Both the position numbers and the translations under genes were made by a program. From Halobacteria archaeon AArc-dxtr1 (GTDB lineage: Archaea > Halobacteriota > Halobacteria > Halobacteriales > Natrialbaceae), in assembly GCA_025517425.1 (NCBI GenBank), contig JAOPJY010000002.1, positions 372,001 to 436,000 of the forward strand: DNA of 64,000 nucleotides, written 5' to 3'. The notes beneath the pieces are model-generated. The model saw nothing but the letters and a program-made list of their open reading frames with translations. It was not told the DNA's origin and did no database searches. This document shows, in pieces, positions 4,464 to 56,845 of the stretch. Numbering within the stretch: position 1 is the stretch's first letter; every line of letters starts with the position of its first letter.

Positions 4464-4466
4464 GGC

Positions 4467-6405: not shown

Positions 6406-6430
6406 CAGTTCCATTCACCTTCTGAAGTGA

Positions 6431-7900
6431 ATGCTTACTGGGTGGCGGTACCGGGGGGCCAGCGTCCTCGGCGTGGTCGGGCTGACGATACTTGCCGTCC
6501 TGACCGCCAACCACGCGGTTACACAATCGCTGTTTACCACCTACGTTCCGCTGTTCAATCGGTTAGACGTGACCGTCCTCTCGGGCGAGTCGCTGTACTG
6601 GGCGTTGCTGTTGGGCGTCCTCGCGGTCGGTGGGTGTCTGGTGCCGCTGTACCAGCCGCGCCCGCGCCGGCTTCTGGATACGGTGTTTCTCGTCCAGAAA
6701 CGGGTGCTCGTGGCCGGCCTCGCGCTGGCGACGCTGGGCTATTTCAACTGGTCGTACCGGTTGCCCCGGGCGACGCTGACGATGACGATCGGCCTGCTCT
6801 CCGTTGCGCTTCCGGCGTGGTTCGTCTGGATCCGCCGGCGCCCGAACGGGGCAGAGGGGCGAACCCTGATCGTCGGCGACGACCTCCGCCAGCTCGAACG
6901 CGTCGTCCCCGCGGTGAACGCTCCCGTGTTGGGCTATCTGTGTCCGACGGGGCTTGGCTACGAGACGCCGGGCACCCCGGGTCCAGTGGCCGACGGCGGC
7001 GTCAGCCTCGGCCAGCCGGATGTCGCCGACATCGAGGAAGCGATCGACGAGCACGGCCGGCTGGGCGCGTTAAACCGGCTGGGTGGCCTCTCGCGACTCG
7101 AGGATACGCTCGTCGAGTACGACGTCGACACCGTCGTGTTGGCGTTCGCCCAGCCCGATCGCGCGGAGTTTTTCGGCGCGCTCGACGCCTGCCACGATCA
7201 CGGCGTCGCAGCGAAAGTCCACCGGGAGTACGCCGATAGCGTCCTGGTCTCGGAGGGAGACGTCGGCGACCTCGTTGACGTCGACGTCGAGCCGTGGGAT
7301 CCGGTGGATCATCTCTACAAGCGGGCGTTCGACATTGCCTTCGCGACGGTCGGACTCGTCGTCTTCGCGCCGTTTTTGCTGGTGATCGCCGCAGCGATCA
7401 AACTCGACAGTCCGGGGCCGGTTCTCTACACCCAGGATCGGACCGCCGGCTTCGGCGAGACCTTCCCAGTGTATAAGTTCCGGACGATGATCCCGGAGGG
7501 AGAGTCGACGACGCCGACCGAAGACGAAGCGAACGATCGGATCACCCGTGTCGGACGCGTGTTGCGCCGAACCCACCTCGATGAGTTGCCCCAGCTGTGG
7601 TCGATCTTCGTCGGCGATATGAGCGTCGTCGGGCCCCGAGCCACCTGGACCGACGAAGAGCCGCTGCTCGAAGCCGACGCCCCCGCCTGGCGCAAGCGCT
7701 GGTTCGTCAAACCCGGGCTGACCGGCCTCGCCCAGATCAACGACGCCAAGAGCACGAACCCGAATCTGAAGCTGCGCTACGATCTGGCGTACATCCGCCG
7801 GCAGTCGTTCTGGTTCGACGTCAAGATCGTGATCCGCCAAGTGTGGACCGTCGTCGAGGACGTGTGGGCGATGGTCGGTCGAGCGGGTCGGTCTGAGTGA
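6431..7900 (+). CDS. Polyprenyl-phosphate sugar-1-phosphate transferase (bacterial sugar transferase family)
   Basis: 489 residues. The first about 140 residues carry four hydrophobic helices, followed by a CoA-binding/Rossmann-like middle part (RTLIVGDDLRQLERVVPAVN). From about residue 296 the catalytic domain begins with YKRAFDIAFATVGLVVFAPF and continues with SPGPVLYTQDR, KFRTM (about 346), RRTHLDELPQLWSI, VGPRATW and KPGLTGLAQIN (about 427). These are the hallmarks of the WbaP/exopolysaccharide glycosylphosphotransferase family. The enzyme moves a sugar-1-phosphate from an NDP-sugar to a membrane polyprenyl phosphate (dolichyl phosphate in archaea), starting glycan synthesis on the inner membrane face. 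It is the initiating enzyme of the island and is flanked by toxin-antitoxin pairs. Confidence 0.92.
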   Translation: MLTGWRYRGASVLGVVGLTILAVLTANHAVTQSLFTTYVPLFNRLDVTVLSGESLYWALLLGVLAVGGCLVPLYQPRPRRLLDTVFLVQKRVLVAGLALATLGYFNWSYRLPRATLTMTIGLLSVALPAWFVWIRRRPNGAEGRTLIVGDDLRQLERVVPAVNAPVLGYLCPTGLGYETPGTPGPVADGGVSLGQPDVADIEEAIDEHGRLGALNRLGGLSRLEDTLVEYDVDTVVLAFAQPDRAEFFGALDACHDHGVAAKVHREYADSVLVSEGDVGDLVDVDVEPWDPVDHLYKRAFDIAFATVGLVVFAPFLLVIAAAIKLDSPGPVLYTQDRTAGFGETFPVYKFRTMIPEGESTTPTEDEANDRITRVGRVLRRTHLDELPQLWSIFVGDMSVVGPRATWTDEEPLLEADAPAWRKRWFVKPGLTGLAQINDAKSTNPNLKLRYDLAYIRRQSFWFDVKIVIRQVWTVVEDVWAMVGRAGRSE

Positions 7901-9211: not shown

Positions 9212-10306
9212 ATGCGAATTCTTCGTGTTGCACAGAAGGTCTATCCCGATATCAAGGGGGGTGGGCCGTACCACGTCCACGCGATGAGCCGCGATCAGGC
9301 CGCGATGGGCCACGACGTGACCGTGCTGACGGTGCGCCACGACCAGTCGCTGCCCGCAATCGAGGAGCGAGCCGGCTATACAGTCGTGCGGTACGATCCC
9401 GTTGCGAAGCCTCTCGGCAACGAGCTCAGCCCCGGCCTGGCACAGTATCTGCGGCGTATCGGCGACGTCGACGTCGTCCACGCTCACTCGCATCTGTACT
9501 TCGCGACGAATCTGGCCGCGCTGAAGCGGCGATTGGGGACGATCCCGCTCGCGATCACGAACCACGGGCTCTACTCCCAGAACGCTCCCGAGTGGGTGTT
9601 CGATCTCTATCTGCGGACAGTCGGCCGGTGGACGTTCAACCAGGCCGACGTCGTCTTCTGTTACACTGACGAGGACCGCGAGCGCGTCCGGGAGTTCGGC
9701 GTCTCGAGCCCGATCGAGGTGGTGGCCAACGGGATCGACACCGAGCGCTTCTCGCCGGCCGGCCCGACGAGTGAGCGGGTGACGGGTGAGAGACCGGTCG
9801 TGGTGTTTGTCGGGCGGCTGGTCGAGGGGAAGCGGCCGTCGGTCGCAGTTGAGGCGTTTGCGTCGGTTGTCGAGGACCATCCAACTGCCCAGTTGTACTT
9901 CTGTGGCGAGGGGCCGCTTCGTGGGGAGTTAGAAGAGCGCGCTCGCGAGCTGGGCGTCCGGGAGGCAGTGACTTTTCTCGGGCAGATTCCGTACGAGGAG
10001 ATGCCCGCCGTCTACCGCAGCGCGGATGCGTTCGTCCTCTCGAGTCGCGCCGAGGGGGTCCCGCGGACGATCATGGAGGCGCTGTCGACCGGCGTCCCCG
10101 TCGTGAGTTCGGCGCTCCCACAGGTCCGGTCGGCGTTTGGCGACGCGGTGGCCTACGCGCCGATCGGCGACGTCGACGCGTTTGCGGACCGGATCCGTGA
10201 AGCGGTCTCTGGTGGGGAGGGTGGCGAGCTGGGCGCCGCGTTCCGCTGGGAGCGAACAGTGGCGGAGACGACGGCGGCGTTGGAAGCTATCGCGGAGAGT
10301 CGGTGA
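9212..10306 (+). CDS. Glycosyltransferase family 4 (GT-B) protein
   Basis: 364 residues, starting MRILRVAQKVYPDIKGGGPY, a typical GT4 N-terminal Rossmann start with the GG loop. DVVHAHSHLYFAT is the usual acceptor-domain motif. VVANGIDTERFSP leads to the second domain, which starts with VVFVGRLVEGKRP (about residue 200). EGVPRTIMEALSTGVPVVSS (about 280) is the donor-binding E-x7-E region. It should transfer a sugar from an NDP-sugar to the lipid-linked glycan on the cytoplasmic side. Two broken relatives occur at 24345-24473 and 30625-30950, almost identical over stretches, so this gene is the intact parent or sister copy. Confidence 0.9.
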   Translation: MRILRVAQKVYPDIKGGGPYHVHAMSRDQAAMGHDVTVLTVRHDQSLPAIEERAGYTVVRYDPVAKPLGNELSPGLAQYLRRIGDVDVVHAHSHLYFATNLAALKRRLGTIPLAITNHGLYSQNAPEWVFDLYLRTVGRWTFNQADVVFCYTDEDRERVREFGVSSPIEVVANGIDTERFSPAGPTSERVTGERPVVVFVGRLVEGKRPSVAVEAFASVVEDHPTAQLYFCGEGPLRGELEERARELGVREAVTFLGQIPYEEMPAVYRSADAFVLSSRAEGVPRTIMEALSTGVPVVSSALPQVRSAFGDAVAYAPIGDVDAFADRIREAVSGGEGGELGAAFRWERTVAETTAALEAIAESR

Positions 10307-35769: not shown

Positions 35770-36885
35770 ATGATGCGTATTGGAAATAGCTCTCAAGCAA
35801 ATTATAGTGAAGATAGCCAAGCAAACGCACCCACTGATTTAGCATACATAATTAATGCACTTTATGTGGGTGGTGCCGAGGTCGGGATGTGTCGGCTGCT
35901 TAATGGTCTTGAGGCAGACAAATACAATGTGACGGTAATAGCGCTTAATGGGCATAGCGAGGATTTGACCGATCGTATTCCTTCATGGGTGACGGTTTAT
36001 GATCTACAAATCACTGACAATCCAAGTATATCTGCCATTCGAAAACTGTGGTCAACTGCACGGAGCGCAGATGTGATTGTTGGTTCTCTTTACCACTCTG
36101 TGATGATTGCTCGCCTTTCTGGACTGTTAAATCAAAAGTCCACCATCGCCACTTGGCAACATATTGAGGAGTTTAAGACAGATAACAGGCGGAAAATTAT
36201 TGGCCTGACAAACAGATTGAGTGATACAGTAATCGCCGATTCGGAACCTGTTGCAGAGATGTACCGAAGCGAGTTCGAAGTGGATGAGGAGTTTGTAAAA
36301 ACAGTACCGATTGCTGGAGTACGACTCGACAACTACACCCCGCGACAGCACCAAAGCAGGGAGACAGTGGTTGTTGGCAGTGTTGGACGACTAGTTCCTC
36401 AGAAGAATTACGAGGCTCTAGTCAAAATAGCCGAAGAGTTATCCACGGAGGATATTGTGTTCCGGATAGCGGGCGACGGTCCAAAACGAACTGAGTTCGA
36501 GACGATGATCGAGGACAGAAACCTCGAAAATATTGAGTTTGTCGGTGAAGTCACAGACGTACCAGAATTCCTCTCTGAAGTTGACATCTACGTCCAGCCA
36601 TCTCGGTGGGAGGGGCTCTGCATGACTGTGATCGAAGCAATGGCTGCTGGGCTACCAGTAGTGGGGAGTACTGTCGGTGGAATAGAACGAAACGTCGAAG
36701 AGGGTGCATCTGGATTTTTGTATGAACCACACGACACAACAGGGTTTAGATCCGGGATCGAAACGCTTGCAGCTGATCCAGATCTCAGAACACAGTTTGG
36801 GGAGCGTGGGCGATCGATCGTCGCAGAATCGTTCACACAGGAAGTGCTTGTAGCTGAATTTGAAAACGCTATTCAACAGGCATAG
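35770..36885 (+). CDS. Glycosyltransferase family 4 protein, AT-rich
   Basis: 371 residues. YIINALYVGGAEVGMCRLLN is the usual GT4 start with the GGAE loop. ATWQHIEEF and DTVIADSEPVAEMY lie in the first domain. VVVGSVGRLVPQKNYEALVK opens the second domain, and SRWEGLCMTVIEAMAAGLPV with VGSTVGGIER is the donor-binding region with the E-x7-E pair. A retaining transfer of a sugar to the lipid-linked glycan is expected. Codon use is richer in A and T than in neighbours, so the gene was probably acquired recently from a lower-GC haloarchaeon. It is convergent with the GT2 gene that follows. Confidence 0.9.
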   Translation: MMRIGNSSQANYSEDSQANAPTDLAYIINALYVGGAEVGMCRLLNGLEADKYNVTVIALNGHSEDLTDRIPSWVTVYDLQITDNPSISAIRKLWSTARSADVIVGSLYHSVMIARLSGLLNQKSTIATWQHIEEFKTDNRRKIIGLTNRLSDTVIADSEPVAEMYRSEFEVDEEFVKTVPIAGVRLDNYTPRQHQSRETVVVGSVGRLVPQKNYEALVKIAEELSTEDIVFRIAGDGPKRTEFETMIEDRNLENIEFVGEVTDVPEFLSEVDIYVQPSRWEGLCMTVIEAMAAGLPVVGSTVGGIERNVEEGASGFLYEPHDTTGFRSGIETLAADPDLRTQFGERGRSIVAESFTQEVLVAEFENAIQQA

Positions 36886-36972: not shown

Positions 36973-37890
36973 CTAGTTAATTAGCCGGAAAAGAGCCCGT
37001 TTTAGTGATCTAGCATATTCGTACTGTGGGCCAGAACAGAGAAGATAGACATAATATTTCCGAACAAATGGATTGTACACAATAGCTCGCATAAACGACC
37101 TCCTCGCTTGTGCGTAGTATCCGTTAACCAGCGCCGAATAGCCGAGTTGGAAACGAAGGCCTGCTAAGCCCGCTCGCGTCTCCATCGTCGATGCTGCTCG
37201 GTTGGTAATCTGCTCACGAACTACAGGGAACGAGACGTTCCGCTTTGGTTCGAACGAAGAACTAATCTGTCCACCTTCGTTGTGACGAACCACCAGTGGC
37301 TTCTGAAGCGTCGTAAAATCGGCTTCTTCAGAGACCCGGAGATACCATTCCCAGTCTTGCCACGCAGGTAATTCGGGATCTGGCAACCCAACCGAAGAGA
37401 GTAGTTCTTGTGCAACGACGACTGAAGAGAAGGTTCCAATCAGATTTTTTCGGAGCAATCCCGACTTAATCTGCTCAGCATCTGGCGCCTCTCTGATTGC
37501 GTTTATACGACCATCGCCGTCGACTTGCTGGACACCCGTGGAGGAAAACGTTGCTCCCGTCCGTTGCAACTGTTCTATTTGCAGTTCGAGCTTCTTCGGA
37601 CGCCACTCGTCATCGGAATCAAGAAATGCAACATACTCACCGGACGAAGCTTCGATCCCCGAAATCCGGGCTGCATTTCCGCCTTGGTTTGTAGCGTGGC
37701 GTACAGTCTCCACCGTATCTAACTCGTTTGGAAACGAAACCTGCGTCTGTAGTGGCGGTTCTGACCCGTCGTCGACCAACACTAGCTCGACATTATCGTA
37801 AGTTTGAGCGGAGACTGAATCAATAGCTCTCTGCACGAGCTCATGACGATTGTATGCTGGAATAATGACTGAGACGAGTGGACCGCACAT
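36973..37890 (-). CDS. Glycosyltransferase family 2 protein
   Basis: 305 residues. The N-terminal GT-A nucleotide-binding start is PLVSVIIPAYNRHELVQRAI, with ELVLVDDGS, then GNAARISGIEASSGEYVAFL and DSDDEW (about residue 94), the metal-binding DxD. WQDWEWYLRVSEEADF holds the acidic catalytic region. The C-terminal about 70 residues contain a hydrophobic/aromatic stretch (ALVNGYYAQARRSFMRAIVY) but no clear membrane helix. It would add one sugar by inversion on the cytoplasmic face. Composition is moderately AT-rich. Confidence 0.9.
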   Translation of the reverse strand: MCGPLVSVIIPAYNRHELVQRAIDSVSAQTYDNVELVLVDDGSEPPLQTQVSFPNELDTVETVRHATNQGGNAARISGIEASSGEYVAFLDSDDEWRPKKLELQIEQLQRTGATFSSTGVQQVDGDGRINAIREAPDAEQIKSGLLRKNLIGTFSSVVVAQELLSSVGLPDPELPAWQDWEWYLRVSEEADFTTLQKPLVVRHNEGGQISSSFEPKRNVSFPVVREQITNRAASTMETRAGLAGLRFQLGYSALVNGYYAQARRSFMRAIVYNPFVRKYYVYLLCSGPQYEYARSLKRALFRLIN

Positions 37891-38127: not shown

Positions 38128-39927
38128 ATGTCTACTACTGATTCAGGATCTACCTCGCGAAGCGAGAAAATCGAGGCCATACGCGAGGTCGCCCGATACA
38201 ATCCAAAGCTCACCGCACTCGTCATCGTTCTCAGTCTGATCGCCGCCGCTCTCGAGGGCGTTGGACTGAGTTTTATTCTACCGATTATCGAGATCGTCCA
38301 GCTCGATGATCCAACAGCGGAAGCAGACGGTCTACTAGGTGCGTTTGTCACTGTATATTCGGCGCTTGGCGTCCCGTTCTCGCTCGGATACGTCGTCATT
38401 GGTGTCGCGGCCGTAATGACGATACGGTATACCACGAGTTTCATCGTCGCGTGGTTCAGTTACGCGCTTCGGTACGACTACATTCGGGACAAGCAATCCC
38501 AGGCATACGAGAGCGCGCTGGATGCACGAATCTCGTACTTCGACGACGAGGGCTCTGACGAGATCCTAAACACGATTATCACGGAGACGAAGTATGGGGG
38601 AAAAGCGATTCAGAACCTCATCCGGTTCGTCGAGAAATTGTTCCTCTCGCTCGTCTACTTGCTGATTGCCCTGGTGATCTCTCCGGTTCTGACGCTCGTT
38701 GCAATTCTGATCCTTGGCTTTTTGACGGTGTTTCTCCGGTACGTCGTCGAACCAGGGTACGAACTCGGTGAACAGGTAGCTGAGGGGAATGAACGGCGTC
38801 ACGAGGCGGCCCAAGCGGGAACGCAGGGCATTCGTGATGTTCGTATTTTTGGGCTCGCAAGCGAATTTCGTCAGAACTTCACTGACGCAATCGACCAGTT
38901 TACGAACTCGAAAGTCTCCCTCAAGCGAAACGAAGCGGCGATCGACAACTTCTACCAGCTCGGCGTTGCCGTCTCCGTCTTCGTGCTCATCTATCTAGCA
39001 CTCACGTTCGCGGACCTCACCGTCGGTGCCCTCGGAGTCTTTCTCTTTGCGATGTACCAGCTCGGACCGAAAGTGAGCCAGCTGAATAGTTATTACTACA
39101 AACTCGAGAACACCCTCCCACACCTCGTCCGCACTGAACGATTCATTGCCGAACTCGAGTCCCGCAAAGAGATCAACGATCCCACTCGAGAGGTTCCAGA
39201 AACGATCGACCGCGTTGAGTGCGAAGAGATCCGGTTTTCGTATAATGGCGACGAAGACGTGATTCGTGGACTCGATTTCGAGGTCGAAAAAGGGGAGTTC
39301 GTCGCCTTCGTCGGCCAGTCGGGAGCCGGGAAATCGACGCTCGTCTCGCTGTTCTTGCGAATGTACGAACTCGACGGCGGCGAGATTCGAGCGGACGGCG
39401 TCCCCATCAGTGAGATGGATGTCGACGAGTGGCGGGAGCGAGTTGCGGTCGTTCGGCAAAACCCGTTCATTTTCAACGATACGCTCGAGTACAACCTGAC
39501 GATCGGAAACCGCGACGCGACGCGAACCGAAATCGATCGGGCAGTCGAAATCGCGAAAGTGGACGAGTTCCTCGACGATATGCCAAAGGGGTACGACACG
39601 GTGCTCGGTGATGAGGGGGTTCGCCTGTCCGGCGGACAGAAACAGCGTGTCTCTCTTGCGCGGGCCTTGCTCGAAGAGGCCGAACTGTTGGTCTTGGACG
39701 AGGCAACCAGTGACTTGGATTCGAACCTCGAACAAGAGGTGCAGGCTGCAATCGAAGCGATGGAACGGGACTATGCAATGATCGCGATTGCACACAGGTT
39801 GTCGACGGTGGAGAACGCTGATCGAATCTACACGATGGAAGACGGCGAAGTCGTCGAGGTTGGGACCCATAGCGAGTTGATCGAGAGTGGTGGCCAATAT
39901 TCGACGTTGTATGGGATTCAGTCGTAG
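38128..39927 (+). CDS. ABC transporter with fused membrane and ATPase domains (glycolipid flippase type)
   Basis: 599 residues. Six membrane helices lie within about residues 30-320. The nucleotide-binding domain follows: Walker A FVGQSGAGKST (about 395), Q-loop VVRQNPFIFN, signature RLSGGQKQRVSLARALL (about 500), Walker B ELLVLDEATSDLD and an H-loop IAHRLSTVENAD. A half-transporter of this kind works as a homodimer. The family includes MsbA and PglK, which flip lipid-linked oligosaccharides. Its place among glycosyltransferases makes flipping of a dolichyl-linked glycan the best guess. It is followed by the epimerase gene in the same direction after 174 bases. Confidence 0.92.
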   Translation: MSTTDSGSTSRSEKIEAIREVARYNPKLTALVIVLSLIAAALEGVGLSFILPIIEIVQLDDPTAEADGLLGAFVTVYSALGVPFSLGYVVIGVAAVMTIRYTTSFIVAWFSYALRYDYIRDKQSQAYESALDARISYFDDEGSDEILNTIITETKYGGKAIQNLIRFVEKLFLSLVYLLIALVISPVLTLVAILILGFLTVFLRYVVEPGYELGEQVAEGNERRHEAAQAGTQGIRDVRIFGLASEFRQNFTDAIDQFTNSKVSLKRNEAAIDNFYQLGVAVSVFVLIYLALTFADLTVGALGVFLFAMYQLGPKVSQLNSYYYKLENTLPHLVRTERFIAELESRKEINDPTREVPETIDRVECEEIRFSYNGDEDVIRGLDFEVEKGEFVAFVGQSGAGKSTLVSLFLRMYELDGGEIRADGVPISEMDVDEWRERVAVVRQNPFIFNDTLEYNLTIGNRDATRTEIDRAVEIAKVDEFLDDMPKGYDTVLGDEGVRLSGGQKQRVSLARALLEEAELLVLDEATSDLDSNLEQEVQAAIEAMERDYAMIAIAHRLSTVENADRIYTMEDGEVVEVGTHSELIESGGQYSTLYGIQS

Positions 39928-40101
39928 GCGACTATGAAGGGGGCAAGCACATCCATTATTGGTACAGCATAGATGAAGAAACCGTAAGAGATGGAAACGG
40001 TGAAGCCGTAACGAAACCTGTGACACCAAAATGTAAATTAAACCATAAGTTCTCGCAGGCATGACCGATAGAATTTCATCATTCACACCCCGTGAGTGGT
40101 T

Positions 40102-41046
40102 ATGGAGCTAACTGGACGCCGCTTCCTTGTTACCGGTGGGCAAGGTTTCATCGGGTCTCGTCTCACAGAAGTGTTGCTCGAGCACGGAAATTCAGTTGTT
40201 GTTGCTGACGATCTCTCGAATAGTACCTCAGCGCAGCTCCCGGACGAAGCGGTGTTTCAAAAGATAGATCTCACCGACTCCAAGGCCGTGGAAGCGCTCT
40301 TCGACGACGAGTTCGACGGCGTGTTTCACTTCGCGGCACGAAAGGATCCGAACGACGACGCCCCACGCGAGCAGTTCGCCGAAAACACGACGATGACGCA
40401 CCTGCTGCTCGAACAGTGTCGTCAGTCGGGCGTCGAGAACTTCGTGTACGCATCTTCGTCGACAGTCTACGGCGAGGCACCGAGACCGACACCGGAAGAT
40501 TACGCGCCACTGGAGCCGATCAGCGTCTACGGGGCCAGCAAACTTGGAGACGAGGGGTTGGTGTCGACGTACGCCCACTCGCACGGACTGACGACGTGGG
40601 CGTTTCGGTTTGCGAACGTCGTTGGGCCAGGTCTTCGAGGCGCGGTGATCCCTGACTTCATTGAGAAATTACGCGACGATCCGGTGACACTGACGATCCT
40701 CGGAGACGGTCGCCAGGAGAAGTCCTATCTTCACCGCAGCGATTGCGTTGACGCGATGTGCTACGCGGTCGAGCACGCAGATGAAGCAGCTCCGAATCGG
40801 GCACACCACACGTTCAATCTCGGGACGCGAACGACGACCTCCGTAGATCGAATCGCCAAGATCGTCGCGGACGTTCTCGGACTGGATCCCGAGTATGAGT
40901 ACACCGGTGGTGATCGCGGTTGGACCGGTGACGTTCCGAAGATGCGTCTTTCAGTGGAAAAATTGGCGGCATTGGGGTGGGAACCGAAGTTAGAGAGTGA
41001 TGAAGCTGTAAGGGTTGCAGCTGGAGAACTCGCTGAGGAGATCTGA
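40102..41046 (+). CDS. NAD-dependent sugar epimerase/dehydratase (extended SDR)
   Basis: 314 residues from the ATG at 40102 (MELTGRRFLVTGGQGFIGSR). GGQGFIG is the Rossmann NAD-binding loop (residues 12-18). Catalytic YGASK (about 143-147) follows the serine-rich VYASSSTVYGE. TWAFRFANVVGPG and LGDGRQEKSYLHRSDCVDAM are typical of UDP-glucose 4-epimerase-like and related SDRs. It makes or interconverts an NDP-sugar for the glycan. The exact substrate is not decidable from the sequence. Confidence 0.9.
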   Translation: MELTGRRFLVTGGQGFIGSRLTEVLLEHGNSVVVADDLSNSTSAQLPDEAVFQKIDLTDSKAVEALFDDEFDGVFHFAARKDPNDDAPREQFAENTTMTHLLLEQCRQSGVENFVYASSSTVYGEAPRPTPEDYAPLEPISVYGASKLGDEGLVSTYAHSHGLTTWAFRFANVVGPGLRGAVIPDFIEKLRDDPVTLTILGDGRQEKSYLHRSDCVDAMCYAVEHADEAAPNRAHHTFNLGTRTTTSVDRIAKIVADVLGLDPEYEYTGGDRGWTGDVPKMRLSVEKLAALGWEPKLESDEAVRVAAGELAEEI

Positions 41047-41101: not shown

Positions 41102-42292
41102 TCAGCTAGTCTTTTGAAGCCGTTCGAAGACTGCTTCCAGTTTCGTCGCTTCATGTGTGATATTGAAGTCCTGACTTACAGTCTGACGTCCGTTTGCGCC
41201 GTACTTCGCTTGCTGGTCCTCAGATTGAAGCAAGTCAACTAACGCATCCGCGATCAAATTTGGATTCCGCGGTTCGACCAGGAGCCCATTCTCCTCGTGA
41301 GTAATTAACTCAGGAATTCCAGATACGCTCGTCGAAATCGGCGGGGTTTCCATCGCCATCGCCTCCATAAGTGCGACCGGAATTCCATCACGATCGCCAG
41401 AATCAGCAATCACGCATGGGAGCAGGAAGCAGTTTGCCTCGTCGATCTCGTTGAGCAAACGCTGGTCACTGACGTTCTCCAGGAACGAGACGGTGTCTTC
41501 GAGTCCCAGTTCAGTGACCTGCTGTCGTAACTCGTCTTCTAAACGACCGGAGCCGATAATGTGATACTCGATATCGGGAATTCGCTCCGTGGCCAGCGCA
41601 ACCCCTTCCAAAGCGTACTGCAACCCCTTCTTCTCGACGAACCGGGACACAGTCACGATCCGGTTCTCTGCTGTATTGCCGGCTGGTGAGAACTTCTCGG
41701 GTCTAATACCCGCTCGAACGATGTCGATTGGGACGTCCGCAGTGAACCGGTTTCGGATGTAGCGTCGGTTGTACTCGGAGATCGTAATGATTCGATCAGC
41801 GCTTTGGAGAAGTTTACCTGCGGATGGATCGATCGGTTCTCTGTAGAGATCGTATGCGTGTGTCGTGATTGTAAACGGTACGTCGAAGTACGAGGCGACG
41901 TACCGGGCGGGAAATCGCGTCTTCGACGCGAAGTGAGTGTGGACGTGATCGAGACCCCAACCCAGTTGCTGGATGAATTCGATGCACCGTTTTGCGTGGA
42001 ATAAGTTCGCCGCATGGTGTTTTATTGGTGCCCGATATCCGGCGTGTTTGAGGATTGCAGGATGGAAACACTTCGTGGAGAGGAGTTCTATCCCGTCTGT
42101 TACGGACGGCCGATCAACGTAGTAGAGTGGAAGTTCAAGCTCGTCCAGTTCGTCGTGTGTGATGCTGGACGTGGGTCGATTCCTCGCACAGACCGCTACG
42201 TCGTGGCCGTTTTGGTCGAGTTCATAAATCTCGTTGAGGACGAAGCTCTGGGAGAGTTTTGGGAATGAGTGGAGGTAATATAGAATCTTCAT
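41102..42292 (-). CDS. Glycosyltransferase family 4 protein (colanic-acid type)
   Basis: 396 residues. MKILYYLHSFPKLSQSFVLN is the start typical of WcaL/AmsK-like GT4 enzymes. DHVHTHFASKTRFPARYVAS and FTITTHAYDLYREPIDPSAG are in the first domain. DIVRAGIRPEKFSP and RIVTVSRFVEKKGLQYALEG open the second. GDRDGIPVALMEAMAMETPP is the donor site with the E-x7-E region. A degenerate relative occurs immediately upstream at 42516-43179, so this is one of a pair made by tandem duplication, the other having decayed. Confidence 0.9.
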   Translation of the reverse strand: MKILYYLHSFPKLSQSFVLNEIYELDQNGHDVAVCARNRPTSSITHDELDELELPLYYVDRPSVTDGIELLSTKCFHPAILKHAGYRAPIKHHAANLFHAKRCIEFIQQLGWGLDHVHTHFASKTRFPARYVASYFDVPFTITTHAYDLYREPIDPSAGKLLQSADRIITISEYNRRYIRNRFTADVPIDIVRAGIRPEKFSPAGNTAENRIVTVSRFVEKKGLQYALEGVALATERIPDIEYHIIGSGRLEDELRQQVTELGLEDTVSFLENVSDQRLLNEIDEANCFLLPCVIADSGDRDGIPVALMEAMAMETPPISTSVSGIPELITHEENGLLVEPRNPNLIADALVDLLQSEDQQAKYGANGRQTVSQDFNITHEATKLEAVFERLQKTS

Positions 42293-47512: not shown

Positions 47513-48820
47513 TCACAACAGCAACCTTGTATATATCGACTTGACGTAAAACGCTAATAGGGGCGATTTCTGTAAAAGGTGACGATAGACCTCCTGTTTT
47601 GAGGAATAGTTGGGCATGGATGGATTCTGTTCCAATCTTGATAGTTCTTCCGTATTGAGCCAGTTGTAAAAATCTAATTCTTTGGCAGATAGCCCATTAA
47701 TTGATTCATTTGGTTTCCTAGGCAAACTGTTTTGAATATCTTCCCAGAATTGTCGGTTTACTTCGTCCATCTCCCATTCTCCCGACAATATTTTCAATCG
47801 TATATCGTTCAGTTCAAGTTTGGGATTCCTGTACCCATAGTGCTTTGGTTGAATTCCTTCAAGAAGCATGGCTGCTAAGTTCCTCGCACAATGGAAGCAC
47901 TCACCACAGGGATACGGTTCACAGGACTGAATGTACAATTCTGGATTTCGGTTTGACAAGAAGTCTGATATCAGTTTCCACTTTTTTTGCCTTCCTGTTT
48001 GGGAGAGATCATGTTTGGCCGTCCCACTCGTCCAAGCTAATTGATTTATTAGTTCTGGTGCTGTCGCCCATCGGATTGAACACTGATCGGTGAATGATGA
48101 TGGAACATACAATTTCCCATATCCTTCCTGATAACATATTGGGATTGAGATCGCTGTGAACCAAAGCCCGTGATTGACCTTCTGCCACCAACTATAGCCA
48201 TTTAACACTCTTCTGTACAATAAATTGACGGAGTTGTAGTCTACAACTCTTTTATTCGTCGCATCTATGCTATTAAAATCTACTTCCTCAAACTCCGCGA
48301 ACGATCTGGCGTTATCCTTCAGGCGTTTATATTCCAGATCCTCGTCGTAGTCAGTGCTCTTGTACTCGACGAAAATCAGTCCAGGGCTCTCGTCTCTGTG
48401 TTCGATGTATGAGGCGAGTCCGTCGACGCCACCACTGAACAGTGTCGCCGACGATGTGGAGTTCGCCCGTCGCTCCTTGACAGCGGCCTCGTACTCGCAG
48501 GTGATGTTATTACCTCCCGTTCCGAAGTTTAATTCGGGGTAGAGCTCGTCTAGAATTTCGCGTGCAGTCTGCAGGGACTCCCCGAAAGTCGGGTCGAGTG
48601 TGGGTACGACGATTTCGATATCCTCGGTCCAGGCGATCGGAGCGACGCTAGCCACGAAGGGAATCGTAGCGATGCCAATGGGGATGTCCTCGACATCCCT
48701 ATCGTAGCCGATGACGTAGTCGGTCCCCCTGAAAAGGTGGTGAAGTCGTCTGTCGTACTCATACTTGTATCGAATCTCAGTGCCCTTGAGTTCGACGTCT
48801 GTGAGGTGTATAGATGGCAT
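47513..48820 (-). CDS. QueC-like PP-loop ATPase with zinc site, in glycan island
   Basis: 435 residues. SSATLFSGGVDGLASYIEHR is the PP-loop (SGGxD-type) that binds ATP and adenylates a substrate. The later ELYIQSCEPYPCGECFHCAR is a four-cysteine zinc site of the CG-x-C-x2-C type seen in QueC. An extra N-terminal about 100 residues (HLTDVELKGTEIRYKYEYDR) and a helical C-terminus are not part of normal QueC (about 220-240 residues). So it is not the queuosine/archaeosine enzyme itself but a specialised relative. By analogy it could activate a carboxylate and add nitrogen, making a nitrile or amide on a glycan precursor. The 3' half is AT-rich and the 5' part has higher GC, suggesting a composite history. 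Confidence 0.78.
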   Translation of the reverse strand: MPSIHLTDVELKGTEIRYKYEYDRRLHHLFRGTDYVIGYDRDVEDIPIGIATIPFVASVAPIAWTEDIEIVVPTLDPTFGESLQTAREILDELYPELNFGTGGNNITCEYEAAVKERRANSTSSATLFSGGVDGLASYIEHRDESPGLIFVEYKSTDYDEDLEYKRLKDNARSFAEFEEVDFNSIDATNKRVVDYNSVNLLYRRVLNGYSWWQKVNHGLWFTAISIPICYQEGYGKLYVPSSFTDQCSIRWATAPELINQLAWTSGTAKHDLSQTGRQKKWKLISDFLSNRNPELYIQSCEPYPCGECFHCARNLAAMLLEGIQPKHYGYRNPKLELNDIRLKILSGEWEMDEVNRQFWEDIQNSLPRKPNESINGLSAKELDFYNWLNTEELSRLEQNPSMPNYSSKQEVYRHLLQKSPLLAFYVKSIYTRLLL

Positions 48821-49502: not shown

Positions 49503-50213
49503 TCACTCATGGAGATCCTGTAAGTCGGGATGGTCACGTAGCTCTGTATGCTCCTCAGAGAGGCCATTATTATAGATTTCAGCTCGAAGTTCTTGCCATT
49601 GTTTGTGTCTATACTTGATTTTTATGGGTATTTCTTCTACGTCAGCAATCTCTGCCATTACTGAACGATGGTTTCCTTGATGTACCATCCATTCTCCATC
49701 TCTGCTAATGCTGGCAGTTATCGTGGAATTCATATTATAGCCATTCGATTTAATATCTTCATAGATGATATCAAGCTCATTGAGATAATCTTCAAAATTG
49801 GATACGGTTTGGGGACCATCTAATCTACCCAACTCTCCGCCCGATTCTAATACCCTAATACCACTCTGGTAATATACAGTATCCTCCCAATCCTTCCCTT
49901 CATTAAATCTTTCAAATAGGCCATAAAAATGACCCTCGACATAATGTGACTTGTTTAAGTCCCATCCCCCATCAAGAATTCCGTAGGGAAGAGCATCATC
50001 GGGTATACACGAACTTCCAATGTGGTGGTTTATATTCTCCGGTTGGACAAGCAATGGTTCGCTTGGTATTCGTCTTCTACCTGGGTATTTGAGGTTATAT
50101 ATAAGCCTATAAAATATTCTATGAATTATAAATTGGTTTGACTTGTTCAATAGTTCAATCACTCCCTCTTGACGGAGTATCTTAAGAGATCTCTTTGCGT
50201 AGTGAGTTGCCAT
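49503..50213 (-). CDS. ParB-fold-like paralogue C, AT-rich
   Basis: 236 residues from the ATG at 50211-50213 (MATHYAKRSLKILRQEGVIE); the frame is open to 50336, but the family-like start is here. The shared motifs are SEPLLVQPENI, ILDGGWDLN, DWEDTVYYQSGIRV, SNGYNMN, ISRDGEWMVHQGNHRSVMAE, IKIKYRHKQWQEL and LRDHPDLQDL. It is the most diverged member (HQGNHR in place of DDGKHR-type). It is transcribed divergently from paralogue D with about 180 bases between starts. Strong A+T bias suggests separate acquisition from D, despite being its neighbour. Confidence 0.72.
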   Translation of the reverse strand: MATHYAKRSLKILRQEGVIELLNKSNQFIIHRIFYRLIYNLKYPGRRRIPSEPLLVQPENINHHIGSSCIPDDALPYGILDGGWDLNKSHYVEGHFYGLFERFNEGKDWEDTVYYQSGIRVLESGGELGRLDGPQTVSNFEDYLNELDIIYEDIKSNGYNMNSTITASISRDGEWMVHQGNHRSVMAEIADVEEIPIKIKYRHKQWQELRAEIYNNGLSEEHTELRDHPDLQDLHE

Positions 50214-50389
50214 ATTTGAGTACCTAAATGATGTTTTGTAGCTCTCTATTATTTTTCGCCCCGGAATTAAATGATCGTAGCTCAGGAAAAATTCCGGCCG
50301 CGTCGCAATATAGAGTTTGCCTGATGGTTGGATCACGCCATTTAAATTTGTTCGGATTCAGATTCTGGTACTGAGTCACGAACGACAAC

Positions 50390-51172
50390 ATGACGTTCGA
50401 TATTCTCCACAACCTGATCCGGAAGGCCCGAGGTAGAATTCACCGGCGTTCGCTCTCTCAACGGTTCGGGGCGAGCGCCGCACGTCCCGACCGGTTGGTC
50501 TGGATCGATCCCTCTGATGTCGAGTATAAGGTACTCCCATTCTTTACGCAGTCAGTTCCCAACGATAGTGAAACATACGTATTCGATGGGGACTGGGACA
50601 GCCGTTTCGCCGATTCAGACCGAATGTATCCGCAAGACTTTGATGGGCTTCCGGATCAGCGATTGTTGTTACCGGTCGAAAACCTCGACTGGTATCGCTC
50701 GTTCGAGGCGCACTTTGATCGAGGCGTCCCTTGGGAGGAGACGATTGTTTACAAACGTCGAATCGACGAGGGGTTCCAGACGAGCCGGTACGACTCTGTC
50801 GACGGAATGCTTGAGCGCCTTTCGGATCTTGACCAGTTATACGACCACTTGGCCTCCAAGGGATATCTAACCCAGGAAGAGCTCGCACAGCGTGAGGAGG
50901 GTCCGATCTCGCCGCGGGGCTGGCAACACGAGGTAGAGATTGACATCGGTCGTCACGGTGATTTATTCCTCGACGACGGTCGGAACCGTCTGATGATCGC
51001 GAAGCTTCTAAGCCTCCGCGAGATACCCGTTCGAATCCTCGTTCGGCATGAGGGATGGCAACGCGTCAGGGAGGCATACGCCGACGCCTCATCTCCCGAA
51101 GATCTTTCTGAGGACCTGTGGGAGTACCGAAACCACCCCGACCTGACAGACGTCATCGATACTGCGGACTGA
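50390..51172 (+). CDS. ParB-fold-like paralogue D
   Basis: 260 residues with the same order of motifs as A: DRLVWIDPSDVEYKVLP, YVFDGDWDSRF, PWEETIVYKRRID, SKGYLTQEEL, EVEIDIGRHGDLFLDDGRNR, LMIAKLL, VRILVRHEGWQRV and YRNHPDLTDV. GC content and codon use match the host, unlike B and C. No membrane segment or signal peptide is present, so it is cytoplasmic. Function by family inference only. Confidence 0.75.
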   Translation: MTFDILHNLIRKARGRIHRRSLSQRFGASAARPDRLVWIDPSDVEYKVLPFFTQSVPNDSETYVFDGDWDSRFADSDRMYPQDFDGLPDQRLLLPVENLDWYRSFEAHFDRGVPWEETIVYKRRIDEGFQTSRYDSVDGMLERLSDLDQLYDHLASKGYLTQEELAQREEGPISPRGWQHEVEIDIGRHGDLFLDDGRNRLMIAKLLSLREIPVRILVRHEGWQRVREAYADASSPEDLSEDLWEYRNHPDLTDVIDTAD

Positions 51173-51928: not shown

Positions 51929-54328
51929 TTACTCGCTCCCCACGGTTTCACCTACAAGCACGTCCTCCTCGGATACTGTCACCTGCTGCCCGCCAACATC
52001 GTACTCCCCAGCGTACGGCACTGTCACCGAGAACTCCCCATCCGCGTCGGCCGTCACGACGCGTTCGTCGGTGAACGACGCGCCATCTGCCTCGACGTCG
52101 GTCTCGACGACCAGCGTCTCGTCGGGCTCTGCCTCGCCGGTGATCGTCGCCCCCTCGACGATCGCAAACGCCGCCACGGACTCGTCCTCGCTCAGCGAGA
52201 GCAACTGATAGTGCGACAGGGTGCGCTCCCCGTCGGCGCCGAGGAGCTCGGGGTGGAGCCCCTCGTCTGCGTCGGCGATCACGTACCCGAACCGGCCATC
52301 CAGCTGGTCCGTCCAGCCGTCAGGATCGTTGTCATGAACGTAGTCGCCGTACCAGCTATCGACGTACCGGTACTGTCGTGACTCCCCGCTGACGAAGTAG
52401 TTGTACATCCGGTTGTCTCCCATTGTGCTGAAGACGGCGTTCTCGCGCCACTCCCGGTCAGTCTCTTCGGCGTGATCCTCAATCGCCAGCGCTGCATCGA
52501 GCTGGGCGTCGTCGTAGGCGACCTGGGCGGTCAGCGACGGGACGAAGATGAGACTCAGCCCACAGACGAGGAGTACAACGCCAAGCATCACCCCCACTTT
52601 GGCGCGTTCGTCGGGGAAGACGAGACTCGGCTCAGCCTCGCCCCCGTCGGCGGCCACCGACCGCGACGGTTCCACTTCGCGAAACGGCCGTGGCACCCGC
52701 GCGAGGTCGACCCACGCGAGCAGGTGGACGAAGCCGAGGCCGCCGAGGACGGAGAGTGGCAACACCAACTGGGCGGCAAACCGCACCTGGTAGGCGGCCA
52801 AGATCAGCCAGAAGCCGGTGTAGACGACGAGCAACAGCCACGCGGGTTCGTAGCGGCGGTACGCAACCACGCAGGCCCAGCCAAGCACCGCAATCCCGAG
52901 ATAAAACCCAACACCGATCTGGCTCAGCGGGCCGAAGATGATCCCCTGCTCGACCGTAAACAACGAGATAGACTCCAGATACCCCTCGCGAGCCAGCAGA
53001 TCGTCCGCTCGGCTGTACAACCGACTCCACACCTCGGGCTGCAAGCCTCGGAACGCGACCAGCCCGCCGGCTCCCAACACCCCCTGCGCGCCGACCAGCC
53101 AACCGACGGGCCACCCGAGGCGCCGCCAGGCCGCACCGAGTGCGATCACGCCGACGGTGCCGACGGCGACAAGCAGCGGGACGAAGCCCGCGTACGGCTC
53201 GTGCCACCCCCACGCGAGGTGAGCCGCCGCGGCGAGGGCGCCACCAAGGGCGACGCCGACCGCCAGCGGACCGTTCGCCGCGATCGGTGAGAGTCCCGCC
53301 CGCACGTCGACGGCGACTTTCAGCGCAATGTACGCCGCCAACGGGATGAACACGAGCACGGAGCCACTCCAGGTGTGTGCAGAGGCCGCAAGCGAGAGGC
53401 CGAGGCCGGCGACGGCCAGCCACGTCCGACCAGAGCGAAGGTAGCCACGGACGGCGGCCTCGTCTGAAGAGGCGCGATCACGGCGGCGGGCGAGATCAGC
53501 CGCCAGCCAGGCCAGCGTCAACAGCGTCACGCCGAGCCAGAGATACTGGTGGAGCCGATGTTCGAGAAAGCCCAGACCGGCATAAACCGCGTGAACCGGG
53601 GCAAGCGCCAGCAAGACGACCGCGGCGAGGCCGACCCGGACGTCGTCGGTGACGACGACGGCAAGCCAGAAGAGGACGACGCCCAGCGCGAGCGTCGCGA
53701 CAACCGGGAGCCACGCGGCGACCATCTCGGCTGCCCACTGATCGCCACCCAGTAACTCCGCGACAACCCAGTTCGTCGCATGGGTCAGGGGCCGTGTATC
53801 GGGCCCGCTTGGGAGATCGGTGATGACCCCGTAATCTGTGATTCCCTCAGAGTCTGCAAGAAGCGTCTCCATCCAGTAGCGGTAGTGGTAGGGGTCGTTC
53901 GCCGGCGAGACGACGTGCCCATCTTGAAACACCGAGCGATAGTTCAGGATTCGCAACACGAACAGAACCGCGAGGGCGCCGAGGAGGCCGGCCATCGCTC
54001 GCCGATCGCCCCAGCGACCGAGATCGAATGACGACCCTCCGAACAGCGAGCCGCCGTCGCTGGCCGACGCCGATTCGATCTCCTCGCCGGCGACCACCGC
54101 CGCCACCACCTCCGGCTCGACGAGCCGGTACGCGCCAGCGTGTTTTTCGACCAGGTCCCGCGAGACAATCTCGCCGAACGTGCCCGAATCCAAGGCAACG
54201 TCGTCGAACGTCCACGTCTCGTGTTCCGCGTCGACCGCGAGGACAGCCTCGAGGACGGCCTCCCCGTCGTCGCGCTCCTCGAGGAACCGCGTCGCCGCCT
54301 CGGCGACCCGCCCCGCGTCGTCAGTCAT
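51929..54328 (-). CDS. STT3/AglB-like oligosaccharyltransferase paralogue with N-terminal winged-helix-like domain
   Basis: 799 residues. The first about 80 residues look like a winged helix (DDVALDSGTFGEIVSRDLVE, KHAGAYRLVEPEVVAAVVAG). About thirteen membrane helices follow (about 120-560). Between the first two lies VSPANDPYHYRYWMETLLAD, matching the metal-binding D-containing loop of AglB. GLGFLEHRLHQY matches another conserved external loop. The soluble C-terminal part ends with a beta-rich domain (VVETDVEADGASFTDERVVT) like AglB. Where AglB has the WWDYG acceptor motif, this protein has VFSTMGDNRMYNYFVSG. It likely transfers a glycan from dolichyl phosphate outside the cell, but to a different acceptor or by a changed mechanism. 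Confidence 0.78.
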   Translation of the reverse strand: MTDDAGRVAEAATRFLEERDDGEAVLEAVLAVDAEHETWTFDDVALDSGTFGEIVSRDLVEKHAGAYRLVEPEVVAAVVAGEEIESASASDGGSLFGGSSFDLGRWGDRRAMAGLLGALAVLFVLRILNYRSVFQDGHVVSPANDPYHYRYWMETLLADSEGITDYGVITDLPSGPDTRPLTHATNWVVAELLGGDQWAAEMVAAWLPVVATLALGVVLFWLAVVVTDDVRVGLAAVVLLALAPVHAVYAGLGFLEHRLHQYLWLGVTLLTLAWLAADLARRRDRASSDEAAVRGYLRSGRTWLAVAGLGLSLAASAHTWSGSVLVFIPLAAYIALKVAVDVRAGLSPIAANGPLAVGVALGGALAAAAHLAWGWHEPYAGFVPLLVAVGTVGVIALGAAWRRLGWPVGWLVGAQGVLGAGGLVAFRGLQPEVWSRLYSRADDLLAREGYLESISLFTVEQGIIFGPLSQIGVGFYLGIAVLGWACVVAYRRYEPAWLLLVVYTGFWLILAAYQVRFAAQLVLPLSVLGGLGFVHLLAWVDLARVPRPFREVEPSRSVAADGGEAEPSLVFPDERAKVGVMLGVVLLVCGLSLIFVPSLTAQVAYDDAQLDAALAIEDHAEETDREWRENAVFSTMGDNRMYNYFVSGESRQYRYVDSWYGDYVHDNDPDGWTDQLDGRFGYVIADADEGLHPELLGADGERTLSHYQLLSLSEDESVAAFAIVEGATITGEAEPDETLVVETDVEADGASFTDERVVTADADGEFSVTVPYAGEYDVGGQQVTVSEEDVLVGETVGSE

Positions 54329-54450: not shown

Positions 54451-55194
54451 TCAGTCGGAGGCCGCCTCGGCGACGGCCCCAGATGCCTCACGGAGGCGCT
54501 GTTCGGCCCGCTCGCGATCCTCGGGATAGCCGACGTCGATGCGCCACCCCTCGAGCCCGATTGCGTCGATCGTCCGCCCCGACTGCAAGAGGAGGTCGAC
54601 GGCCTCGCTGAGCTCGTACTCGCCGCGATCGGAGGGCTGGACGAGCTGGCAGGCGTGGAAGATCGCCGGGGAAAACGTATAGAAGCCGGTCATGACGAGA
54701 TTCGACGGCGGGTCGTCGGGCTTTTCGACGACGTCCGTGATCTCGCCGTACTGGTTCGTATCACAGACCCCGTACCGGGAGGCTTCCTCCCACGGGACGT
54801 CCTCGACGAGGAAGGCGGCATCGGCGCGCGCTTCGCGCTGGCGCCGGACGACGTCGCCCAGATTTGCCTGGAAGATGTTGTCCCCCAGGATGAGCATGAA
54901 GTCGTCGTCGATGTGCTCTTCGACGGTCAACAGCGCGTGGGCGAGCCCCCGCTGTTCGCGCTGGTGGGTGTACGTGATCGGGACGTCGCGATAGGCGTCA
55001 CCGTAGTGGTCGATGATCTGCTCTTTGCGGTAGCCGACGACCACGACGAGTTCGCTCGCACCAAGCTCGACGAGTTCGTCGAAACAGTGGGTAAGAATCG
55101 GCTGTCCGTCGACCTCGACGAGCCCCTTCGGTTTCTCGTCGGTCAACGGCCGGAGCCGGGTCCCCTCCCCGGCTGCGAGAACGACTGCTTGCAT
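54451..55194 (-). CDS. aglF: UTP--glucose-1-phosphate uridylyltransferase (AglF-like)
   Basis: 247 residues from the ATG at 55192-55194 (MQAVVLAAGEGTRLRPLTDE); the 28-residue upstream extension is not family-like. GEGTRLRPLT with EKPKGLVEV is the nucleotidyltransferase signature. LILGDNIF, YGVCDTNQYGEITDVVEKPD, VMTGFYTFSPAIFHACQLVQ and GYPEDRERAEQ follow the Haloferax AglF pattern closely in my memory. AglF makes UDP-glucose for S-layer N-glycan synthesis. Adjacent OST-like and other nucleotidyltransferase genes support a glycosylation role. Confidence 0.88.
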   Translation of the reverse strand: MQAVVLAAGEGTRLRPLTDEKPKGLVEVDGQPILTHCFDELVELGASELVVVVGYRKEQIIDHYGDAYRDVPITYTHQREQRGLAHALLTVEEHIDDDFMLILGDNIFQANLGDVVRRQREARADAAFLVEDVPWEEASRYGVCDTNQYGEITDVVEKPDDPPSNLVMTGFYTFSPAIFHACQLVQPSDRGEYELSEAVDLLLQSGRTIDAIGLEGWRIDVGYPEDRERAEQRLREASGAVAEAASD

Positions 55195-55366
55195 TGGGCA
55201 GAATTGATCAGTAGAGATGCAATAACGTTCTGGTTGCGAGATTGCCAGTCGTCGAGACCACCACGGACAGCCAACCATCGCTGAGGACGTCTCCCGTCAA
55301 CAACCCCGAGACTGGCATCGTCCACAAAAGCGAAGCCACAGGAGGCAAGAGCATGGCACAGCCTCA

Positions 55367-55888: not shown

Positions 55889-56845
55889 CTACCTGATGAC
55901 GGAGTAAGAGGCGACGACGCTATCGGCGATCGAGACCCCCTCGACGACGCTACACTGGTCGAGGACGGTATCCGAAATCGTCGCGTCGGTAACTTCCGCA
56001 TCCGGAAAGACGACGGCGCGCTCGAGCGTCGAGTCGACGAGCTCGGCGCCGGCCATAACGTGGACGTTGGTCCCAAACGAACAGTTTTCGACCGTCGCGG
56101 AGGCCGCAATAGAGGTCGCCCCGTCTAAGTGGTGGGAGATCGCATCGAGATACGAGCCGGGCGTCTCGACGTCGAACCAGGCGCCGTCGACGGGAAACGC
56201 AGAGACGGGGCGGCGCTCGAGCAGCCAGCCGATGAACGCGCCCAGCTCTTCGGGATCGTTGCCCGCCTCGAGGTAGGGCTCGAGCGAGGCGAGGGCGTCG
56301 GCGGGCAGGCCGTAGCAGGCGATCGAGATCAGCGAGCTGTCGGGCTCGGCGGGTTTTTCCCGGAAAGCGGTGACGCGGCCGTCGTCGACGTCGATGACGC
56401 CGTAGTTCGAGGCGCGGTCGGTCGTCCCGCGGTCGTAGGCGGCGATCGTCGGCCCCGCTCGGTCCTGGTAGGCGTCGAGGAAGTCACTGATCGCGAAGCT
56501 GACGTAGTTGTCGCCCGCGATCACGAGGGCGTCGTCGAGCGACTCGCGTGCCGTCAGCTGTGCGAGCGCCCCGATAACGCCGAGTCGGCTGCCATCCGAG
56601 GCTGCCGTCTCGACGACGACGGTCGGCTTCTCGTAGGGCGCATCTGCGAGATGGGCGTCGATCTCGGGGGCGAACTCGCGGTTCGTGAGTACGTACACCG
56701 TCTCGATGCGCGGGTCGCGCTCGAGTTCGCCGAAGATGCGATCGATGATCGTCGTGCCGTCGATCGGGAGAAACATCTTCGGCCGGTGGTCCGTCCCCGG
56801 CCACATTCGCGAGAAATCGCCACCCGCCAGCACGACAGCGTCCAT
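55889..56845 (-). CDS. Sugar-phosphate nucleotidyltransferase with left-handed beta-helix tail
   Basis: 318 residues. MDAVVLAGGDFSRMWPGTDH and RPKMFLPIDGTTIIDRIFGE correspond to the nucleotidyltransferase start. The usual G-x-x-TR is changed to GGDFSR, a noticeable variation. DDALVIAGDNYVSFAISDFL has the catalytic D, and NYGVIDVDDGRVTAFREKP binds the sugar. The last 80 residues carry hexapeptide-like repeats (IAASATVENCSFGTNVHVMA, VVFPDAEVTDATISDTVLDQ) of a left-handed beta-helix. It makes an NDP-sugar; the exact sugar is undetermined. It ends convergent with the VanZ-like gene. Confidence 0.87.
   Translation of the reverse strand: MDAVVLAGGDFSRMWPGTDHRPKMFLPIDGTTIIDRIFGELERDPRIETVYVLTNREFAPEIDAHLADAPYEKPTVVVETAASDGSRLGVIGALAQLTARESLDDALVIAGDNYVSFAISDFLDAYQDRAGPTIAAYDRGTTDRASNYGVIDVDDGRVTAFREKPAEPDSSLISIACYGLPADALASLEPYLEAGNDPEELGAFIGWLLERRPVSAFPVDGAWFDVETPGSYLDAISHHLDGATSIAASATVENCSFGTNVHVMAGAELVDSTLERAVVFPDAEVTDATISDTVLDQCSVVEGVSIADSVVASYSVIR

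Follow-up and report, generated by a model that had tools for sequence, protein, structure and literature searches.

The known system closest to the enzyme discussed here is AglB, the archaeal STT3 protein. According to the excerpts of papers on which this text draws for all published work, Trp-Trp-Asp of AglB and a residue of the DK/MI motif build the pocket for the Ser or Thr at position +2 of the acceptor site (PMC3703281; PMC8342417). The metal ligands of Archaeoglobus fulgidus AglB (AfAglB) are D47, D161 and H163, with E360 acting via a water molecule (PMC8342417). We describe here a gene for an AglB-like glycan transferase without WWDYG, which lies on the minus strand (51929..54328) of a 64,000-nucleotide stretch (372,001 to 436,000) of contig JAOPJY010000002.1 of Halobacteria archaeon AArc-dxtr1; this stretch is called the window below. 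The protein combines the fold and much of the catalytic core of AglB with a rebuilt acceptor pocket and with an N-terminal domain that resembles that of the insertase Ylp1.

In Halobacterium (Hbt.) salinarum, the enzyme behind one glycan attachment has been missing for decades. The glycan at Asn-2 of the surface-layer (S-layer) glycoprotein of this species is GalNAc-linked, is built on dolichyl pyrophosphate (Dol-PP) and is still attached when Ser-4 is lost (PMC2952790; PMC8674786). A single oligosaccharyltransferase gene was reported in this organism in a review, and later papers invoke a novel oligosaccharyltransferase, not yet identified (PMC3871713; PMC6591318). The excerpts of papers on Agl22 and Agl23 of Haloarcula hispanica gave no lead, Agl23 being a putative flippase (PMC11182771), nor did those on AepG (PMC9943897). 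No description of a haloarchaeal AglB family lacking WWDYG was found in the titles and displayed abstracts of the papers that literature searches listed; database records of relatives are annotated 'STT3 domain-containing protein'.

Fold and catalytic core

The gene starts with ATG and is an intact open reading frame (ORF) for 799 amino acids. Against TIGR04154 (archaeal STT3), the protein scored 142.1 bits, below the curated cut-off of 450, and its C-terminus matched PF18079 (AglB_L1) with 35 bits, over the cut-off of 23.6. This peripheral beta domain is encoded at 52004..52153 on the minus strand (residues 726-775). The host genome, which is haloarchaeal and 2.8 Mb in size, has a canonical AglB with WWDYG on a separate contig (locus L002; 819.6 bits to TIGR04154), so that the product of 51929..54328 is a second, different protein. 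The idea that it is the sole AglB, and hence the house enzyme of this organism, was ruled out on the same ground.

An AlphaFold2 model made with 65 family sequences had a predicted local distance difference test score (pLDDT) of 90.2 and a predicted template modelling score (pTM) of 0.85. Its top match in the Protein Data Bank (PDB) was AfAglB (7e9s; Foldseek E 5.6e-20), and in a VIA comparison of model residues 106-799 with the same structure 637 residues were aligned (Z 33.4, 4.1 Å). Both comparisons revealed the GT-C STT3 fold with an extracytoplasmic C-terminal domain. A sequence profile aligned with AfAglB (3waj) at E 3.3e-26, placing D47, D161, E360 and R426 opposite D145, E256, E452 and R516, respectively.

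The first metal motif, PANDPYHYRYWME, is located at 53867..53905 on the minus strand (residues 142-154). D145 in this motif corresponds to D47 of AfAglB, and both N144 and D145 were present in all 89 members of the family alignment, from which the incomplete locus L063 and loci duplicating L029-L108 were left out. The second DXD position reads E256-H257-R258 (53555..53563, minus), the counterpart of D161-H162-H163; across the 89 members it is DHH in 44, EHR in 25, DHQ in 16 and otherwise in 4, while an acid at 256 and H257 occur in every one of them. E452 (52973..52975, minus), equivalent to E360 of the TIXE motif, and R516 (52781..52783, minus), equivalent to R426 near the phosphate site, are likewise found in 89/89. 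The enzyme has the AglB/STT3 fold and retains the Asp of the first metal motif, the Glu of TIXE and the Arg beside the phosphate site. As the H163 position is Arg in this protein and is His in only 44/89, the metal site is not identical to that of AglB.

The acceptor-binding position

The position of WWDYG is occupied by STMGDNRMYNYF (52394..52429, minus, residues 634-645). The family consensus at this site is S-x-W-G-D-N-R-M-Y-N-Y-F, with the motif SxWGxNRxYN; V632 and N643 were conserved in all 89 members, R640 in 88, W636 in 86 and S634 in 82. When the family was aligned, profile to profile, with 31 canonical haloarchaeal AglBs (probability 100, E 1.9e-41), VFSTMGDN came to lie opposite VLSWWDYG. 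WWDYG was present in 0/89, and neither WWD nor WWE was found anywhere in any of the aligned family members, which rules out a canonical motif elsewhere in the protein. In the control, all 31 canonical haloarchaeal AglB loci contained WWDYG, their ORFs having been chosen with a 'WW' filter for which every locus yielded one. A sequencing error could be ruled out since the closest relative, L029, carries the identical STMGDN.

Canonical haloarchaeal AglBs also retain D639, K646 and F647 of the DK motif (L002 numbering). No matching conserved Lys or Ile was recognised in family columns 680-710, the DK/MI motif being one that is hard to spot by sequence (PMC3703281). The Asp of WWD is lost in the family as well, and the acceptor pocket formed around WWDYG has been rebuilt family-wide into SxWGxNRxYN. 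Because WWDYG is missing, the protein has been filed within the STT3/AglB kind as a variant with the presumed action of an oligosaccharyltransferase, and not as AglB.

The likeness to AglB (TIGR04154; AfAglB 3waj/7e9s; Haloferax AglB) thus extends over the fold of residues 106-799, the first metal Asp, an acid at the D161 position, the TIXE Glu, the phosphate-site Arg and the C-terminal AglB_L1 domain. The family differs by its own motif in place of WWDYG and the unrecognised DK/MI residue, by an extra N-terminal winged-helix-like domain, by a TIGR04154 score under the cut-off, by forming a clade of its own and by having a phosphoglycosyl transferase as neighbour. An earlier note on this DNA, made from the sequence alone, had claimed an AglB/STT3 metal loop and topology together with a missing WWDYG. 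Fold and core now bear out the first claim and STMGD opposite SWWDY the second, and the canonical WWDYG elsewhere that would have spoken against it did not turn up.

The N-terminal domain and Ylp1

Residues 1-86 (54071..54328, minus) form a winged-helix-like domain. In the AlphaFold2 model, its elements follow the order helix-helix-(strand)-helix-hairpin-helix at a pLDDT of about 95, and residues 1-88 modelled alone again adopted the winged-helix order (pLDDT 92). The winged-helix-like cytoplasmic N-terminus of about 80 residues that had been read from the sequence is thus both predicted and conserved: W39, F41, S48, G49, F51, G52, E53 and Y67 occur in 87-89 of the 89 members, and only the ORF of one member, L071, is without the domain. 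Its VIA neighbours, judged by their titles, were mostly winged-helix domains, the best at Z 7.1, which is below the level of a safe match. Foldseek with the domain alone gave no match at E<=0.001, no Pfam family was matched by it, and a search of its profile against PDB sequences returned chance matches to repeat proteins only.

Five whole genomes were scanned with a profile built from 27 of these domains, without Ylp1. The AglB-like enzyme was recovered in 5/5 (107-125 bits); beyond it, only six proteins of about 300 amino acids matched, with E 2.1e-6 to 2.2e-10, and every further match had E >= 0.26. All six show 46-56% identity to the Ylp1 of L154 over most of the length of the latter. The three Ylp1 proteins tested belong to PF01956 (EMC3/TMCO1, DUF106); two of their three genes sit between an adenylate kinase gene (adk) and a cytidylate-kinase-like gene (cmk), with SecY nearby in Hbt. 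salinarum. As judged by these profile matches, the domain at the cytoplasmic N-terminus of the enzyme and the N-terminus of the haloarchaeal Ylp1 insertase are homologous. In both proteins this domain precedes the membrane part, which in Ylp1 is an Oxa1-superfamily insertase and not a glycosyltransferase.

The superfamily of the archaeal YidC-like Ylp1 includes TMCO1, which is located at the ribosome-bound Sec61 translocon (PMC7505659). The domain common to the enzyme and Ylp1 suggests that both may use a common docking site at the translocon. Of the regulatory or docking role proposed in the earlier note, docking is therefore the part that gained ground; a DNA-binding regulator is not supported, the only other carriers of the domain at E<=1e-5 in the five genomes being Ylp1 insertases. 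Hbt. salinarum also has a second Ylp1-type protein (L209:3564-4451 on G054:C5; PF01956, 150.8 bits), which is encoded on another contig, outside the adk-cmk locus and directly downstream of genes resembling a redox-enzyme operon.

Distribution and gene neighbourhood of the family

Full-length relatives with 34-58% identity were found in 18/41 near genomes, at 20 places when the window's own is counted, and a canonical AglB over the TIGR04154 cut-off in 38/41. Among named genomes, a scan yielded 106 confirmed relatives, of which 80 were kept; all are haloarchaeal, with WWDYG in 0/80. In a class-wide search of 391 genomes, 277 had a match at E<=1e-10 and about 215 a strong one, the latter being a hand count of the 277 minus 62 matches weaker than E 1e-40; the remaining matches are no stronger than cross-matches to AglB would be. 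In a tree of 25 family members and 16 of the 31 AglBs, the family and the canonical AglBs were separated with support 100. A relative on a plasmid of Haladaptatus salinisoli (L193:5641-8589), annotated as a LamG-like jellyroll protein and covering 83% of the query (residues 133-796), may be fused to a carbohydrate-binding domain.

A PF02397 phosphoglycosyl transferase was present in the flanks of 47 of the 65 loci that span 18 kb or more (52/81 over all lengths) and lay at most 800 bp from the enzyme gene in 26 loci. The profile used was built from neighbours already found by clustering, on which these counts therefore depend in part. Three representatives were confirmed as PF02397. The phosphoglycosyl transferase occurred in 18/18 family-positive versus 7/23 family-negative genomes (Fisher 2.6e-6, a generous value as the genomes are related). 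This co-occurrence suggests a dolichol-PP-linked donor. Genes that recur beside the enzyme gene also encode AglF-type uridylyltransferases, epimerases, UDP-glucose dehydrogenases, glycosyltransferases of families 4 (GT4) and 2 (GT2), and sulfatases; the AglF-like uridylyltransferase family is present in 26 neighbourhoods.

The locus of Halobacterium salinarum

Genome G054 was recognised as Hbt. salinarum by 5,774 bases identical (100%) to pNRC200 (NC_002608). It encodes a canonical AglB (834 bits) as well as a family member (116.5 bits), the acceptor position of which reads SRWSRNRLYNWF. In locus L156, the S-layer gene csg (4147-6684; TIGR04216, 1181 bits) is followed by intervening DNA, the AglB-like enzyme gene (10003-12321) and the genes for GlmS, two GlmU-like enzymes and a PF02397 enzyme. 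The DNA between csg and the enzyme gene appears to encode an export-type ATP-binding cassette (ABC) system, an unconfirmed reading. GlmS, the two GlmU-like enzymes and the phosphoglycosyl transferase would make up the set needed for a start on N-acetylhexosamine-PP-dolichol. Full-length family members were found in 4/13 Halobacterium genomes, and csg-type genes near the enzyme gene not just in Hbt. salinarum but also in Halobacterium sp. CBA1126, in two Halorubrum and on one Haloplanus plasmid.

The csg protein of G054 has Ala-Asn-Ala-Asp after the signal peptide, at what we take to be its cleavage site, and Asn-2 of this strain is therefore without Ser or Thr at +2. The classical Hbt. salinarum strain has Asn-Ala-Ser at Asn-2 (PMC2952790). 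What has been reported on the second oligosaccharyltransferase of this organism, with its Dol-PP donor, dispensable sequon Ser and S-layer acceptor, fits the family (PMC2952790; PMC3871713; PMC8674786).

Other genes in the window

Directly upstream of the enzyme gene lies the gene of an AglF-like UTP--glucose-1-phosphate uridylyltransferase (54451..55278, minus; NF041313, 443.4 bits, cut-off 400). Homology begins at Met29, so that the true start is probably 55194. A sugar-1-phosphate nucleotidylyltransferase of the GlmU/AglF kind is encoded at 55889..56845 (minus; PF00483, 96.4 bits). The PF02397 polyprenyl-phosphate phosphoglycosyl transferase of the window (6431..7900, plus; 195.3 bits) is the only one that the genome yields at E<=1e-5, and is the putative maker of the Dol-PP-linked donor. 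Further along are genes for three GT4 glycosyltransferases (9212..10306, plus; 35770..36885, plus; 41102..42292, minus), a GT2 glycosyltransferase (36973..37890, minus), an NAD-dependent sugar epimerase (40096..41046, plus) and an ABC exporter with membrane part and ATPase in one chain (38128..39927, plus; PF00005, PF00664). The exporter may be a flippase for lipid-linked glycans, presumably of the PglK kind.

The glycan region also contains the gene of an asparagine-synthase-like amidotransferase (31807-33705, minus; Asn_synthase, 304 bits); such amidotransferases are found in amidated-sugar pathways. A surface protein of 3121 amino acids with beta-helix, GLUG and CARDB domains (12185-21550, plus) is encoded in the same region and is a possible large acceptor. 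A family of proteins of about 265 amino acids without a clear Pfam match has four copies beside the AglB-like gene, at 44285-45088 (plus), 46713-47497 (minus), 49503-50336 (minus) and 50390-51172 (plus), and one beside the canonical AglB of the host (L110:16276-16764, minus). The copy at 46713-47497 is split across two frames and looks frameshifted. A protein of 435 amino acids (47513-48820, minus) matches QatC weakly (17.3 bits, cut-off 280), QatC being a QueC-like protein of an anti-phage system.

Possible function

With a probability of about 0.5, the gene product is an oligosaccharyltransferase of a second and separate type, which would use a Dol-PP-linked glycan as donor and a protein site that needs no sequon as acceptor, and would be held at the translocon by its N-terminal domain. 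The fold and the donor side are well supported; the acceptor and the docking are what we infer. The step in which we have most confidence is that the donor would be a glycan on dolichyl pyrophosphate, begun by the accompanying phosphoglycosyl transferase. Next comes the acceptor, which may be some secreted protein, for instance the S-layer glycoprotein, modified at a site needing no Asn-X-Ser/Thr. Ranked third is the docking, by which the N-terminal domain would hold the enzyme at SecY, Ylp1 and the ribosome exit to act on sites as they emerge. The Hbt. salinarum copy would then supply the missing activity that attaches the repeating-unit glycan to Asn-2 of the S-layer glycoprotein. The fullest form of this proposal, put forward here tentatively and itself rather doubtful, is a second haloarchaeal oligosaccharyltransferase class, tied to SecY/Ylp1 by the winged helix, that puts polymeric glycans from Dol-PP on Asn without Ser or Thr and that in Hbt. 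salinarum is the Asn-2 enzyme.

Several observations weigh against the proposed second oligosaccharyltransferase. Seven genomes have the phosphoglycosyl transferase without the AglB-like enzyme, and in the window the two genes are 44 kb apart. At the active site, the window protein has E-H-R versus the metal-binding D-H-H of AfAglB; the H163 position is His in only 44/89 and Arg in the window protein. The latter and its nearest relative L029 have M where most relatives retain the second W. The docking at the translocon is drawn from a single shared domain. A csg gene was nearby in just five clear cases among the neighbourhoods examined, and none was found in the window or in 56 kb more of the host genome; the csg protein beside the Halobacterium sp. 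CBA1126 copy is without Asn-2, which we have weighed as neutral. Finally, the Haloferax-like genus g55 had no strong family match in the class-wide search: genomes G098, G206 and G256 gave weak matches only (E 7e-23 to 6e-16), and G168 and G278 were absent from the 277 matching at E<=1e-10. The genus was called Haloferax-like by a Csg probe at 80-87% identity, none at 100%, in a sample without Haloferax (Hfx.) volcanii itself. The family as the source of the Asn-498 enzyme of Hfx. volcanii is thus not supported, and the AglB-independent reaction at Asn-498 is probably due to another enzyme.

The acceptor could instead be another glycan or a lipid, with no protein involved, the enzyme being a polymerase or ligase of surface polysaccharide that moves a Dol-PP glycan. 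The window and most neighbourhoods are indeed polysaccharide loci, with glycosyltransferases, epimerases, UDP-glucose dehydrogenases and sulfatases; the S-layer gene is absent from most of them, and WWDYG, which reads the peptide, is gone. We consider this unlikely, though well worth keeping in mind, as the C-terminal globular and P1 (AglB_L1) domains of the AglB type are retained, the Hbt. salinarum gene sits by csg, GlmS and the phosphoglycosyl transferase, and the N-terminal domain is common to a protein-insertion factor. A protein acceptor modified through another linkage, at Thr or Ser, or at Trp as by DPY19, is improbable. The DPY19 C-mannosyltransferase acts without WWDYG on Trp, with dolichyl phosphate mannose as donor; DPY19 and the protein mannosyltransferases (PMTs) use dolichyl phosphate monosaccharides, whereas the present gene travels with an initiator of the Dol-PP type. 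DPY19 (7zlh), compared by fold only, shares the STT3-type fold and was among the best VIA matches (Z 25.0), but the model over residues 106-799 matches AglB much better. Haloarchaeal S-layer proteins do bear O-glycans (PMC2952790).

Still closer to the known system would be an ordinary AglB paralogue that keeps to N-X-S/T with a degenerate pocket. Paralogues of AglB are known in archaea, with three in A. fulgidus (PMC3703281), and one Trp of the pair is retained in 86/89; such decay is nevertheless decidedly improbable given the strictly conserved new motif (R640 in 88/89, N643 in 89/89), the lost Asp of WWD, the TIGR04154 score of 142 against a cut-off of 450 and the unrecognised Lys or Ile column of DK/MI. 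That the protein is a catalytically dead scaffold, as the replacement of D-H-H by E-H-R in 25/89 might indicate, is hardly credible in view of the invariance of D145, E452 and R516. The earlier note had left the acceptor between a lipid, a different sequon and a polysaccharide. The changed acceptor side stands. A protein acceptor with another sequon or none is favoured by the literature and by the neighbourhood, namely the phosphoglycosyl transferase and, in Halobacterium, Halorubrum and Haloplanus, the S-layer gene.

In conclusion, N-glycosylation is taught as a single reaction that obeys a single acceptor rule, N-X-S/T, with WWDYG as the reader. This rule is broken by Asn-2 of Hbt. salinarum, the modification of which survives loss of Ser-4 and uses a different lipid carrier, and by the AglB-independent glycan of Hfx. 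volcanii. A concrete second gene can now be named in Hbt. salinarum, near csg. Its product has the fold and the active-site residues known from oligosaccharyltransferases but no reader of the sequon, and an initiator of the Dol-PP type is encoded close by. If the proposed function is true, the domain in common with Ylp1 would provide an archaeal counterpart to the Sec61-bound oligosaccharyltransferase of eukaryotes.

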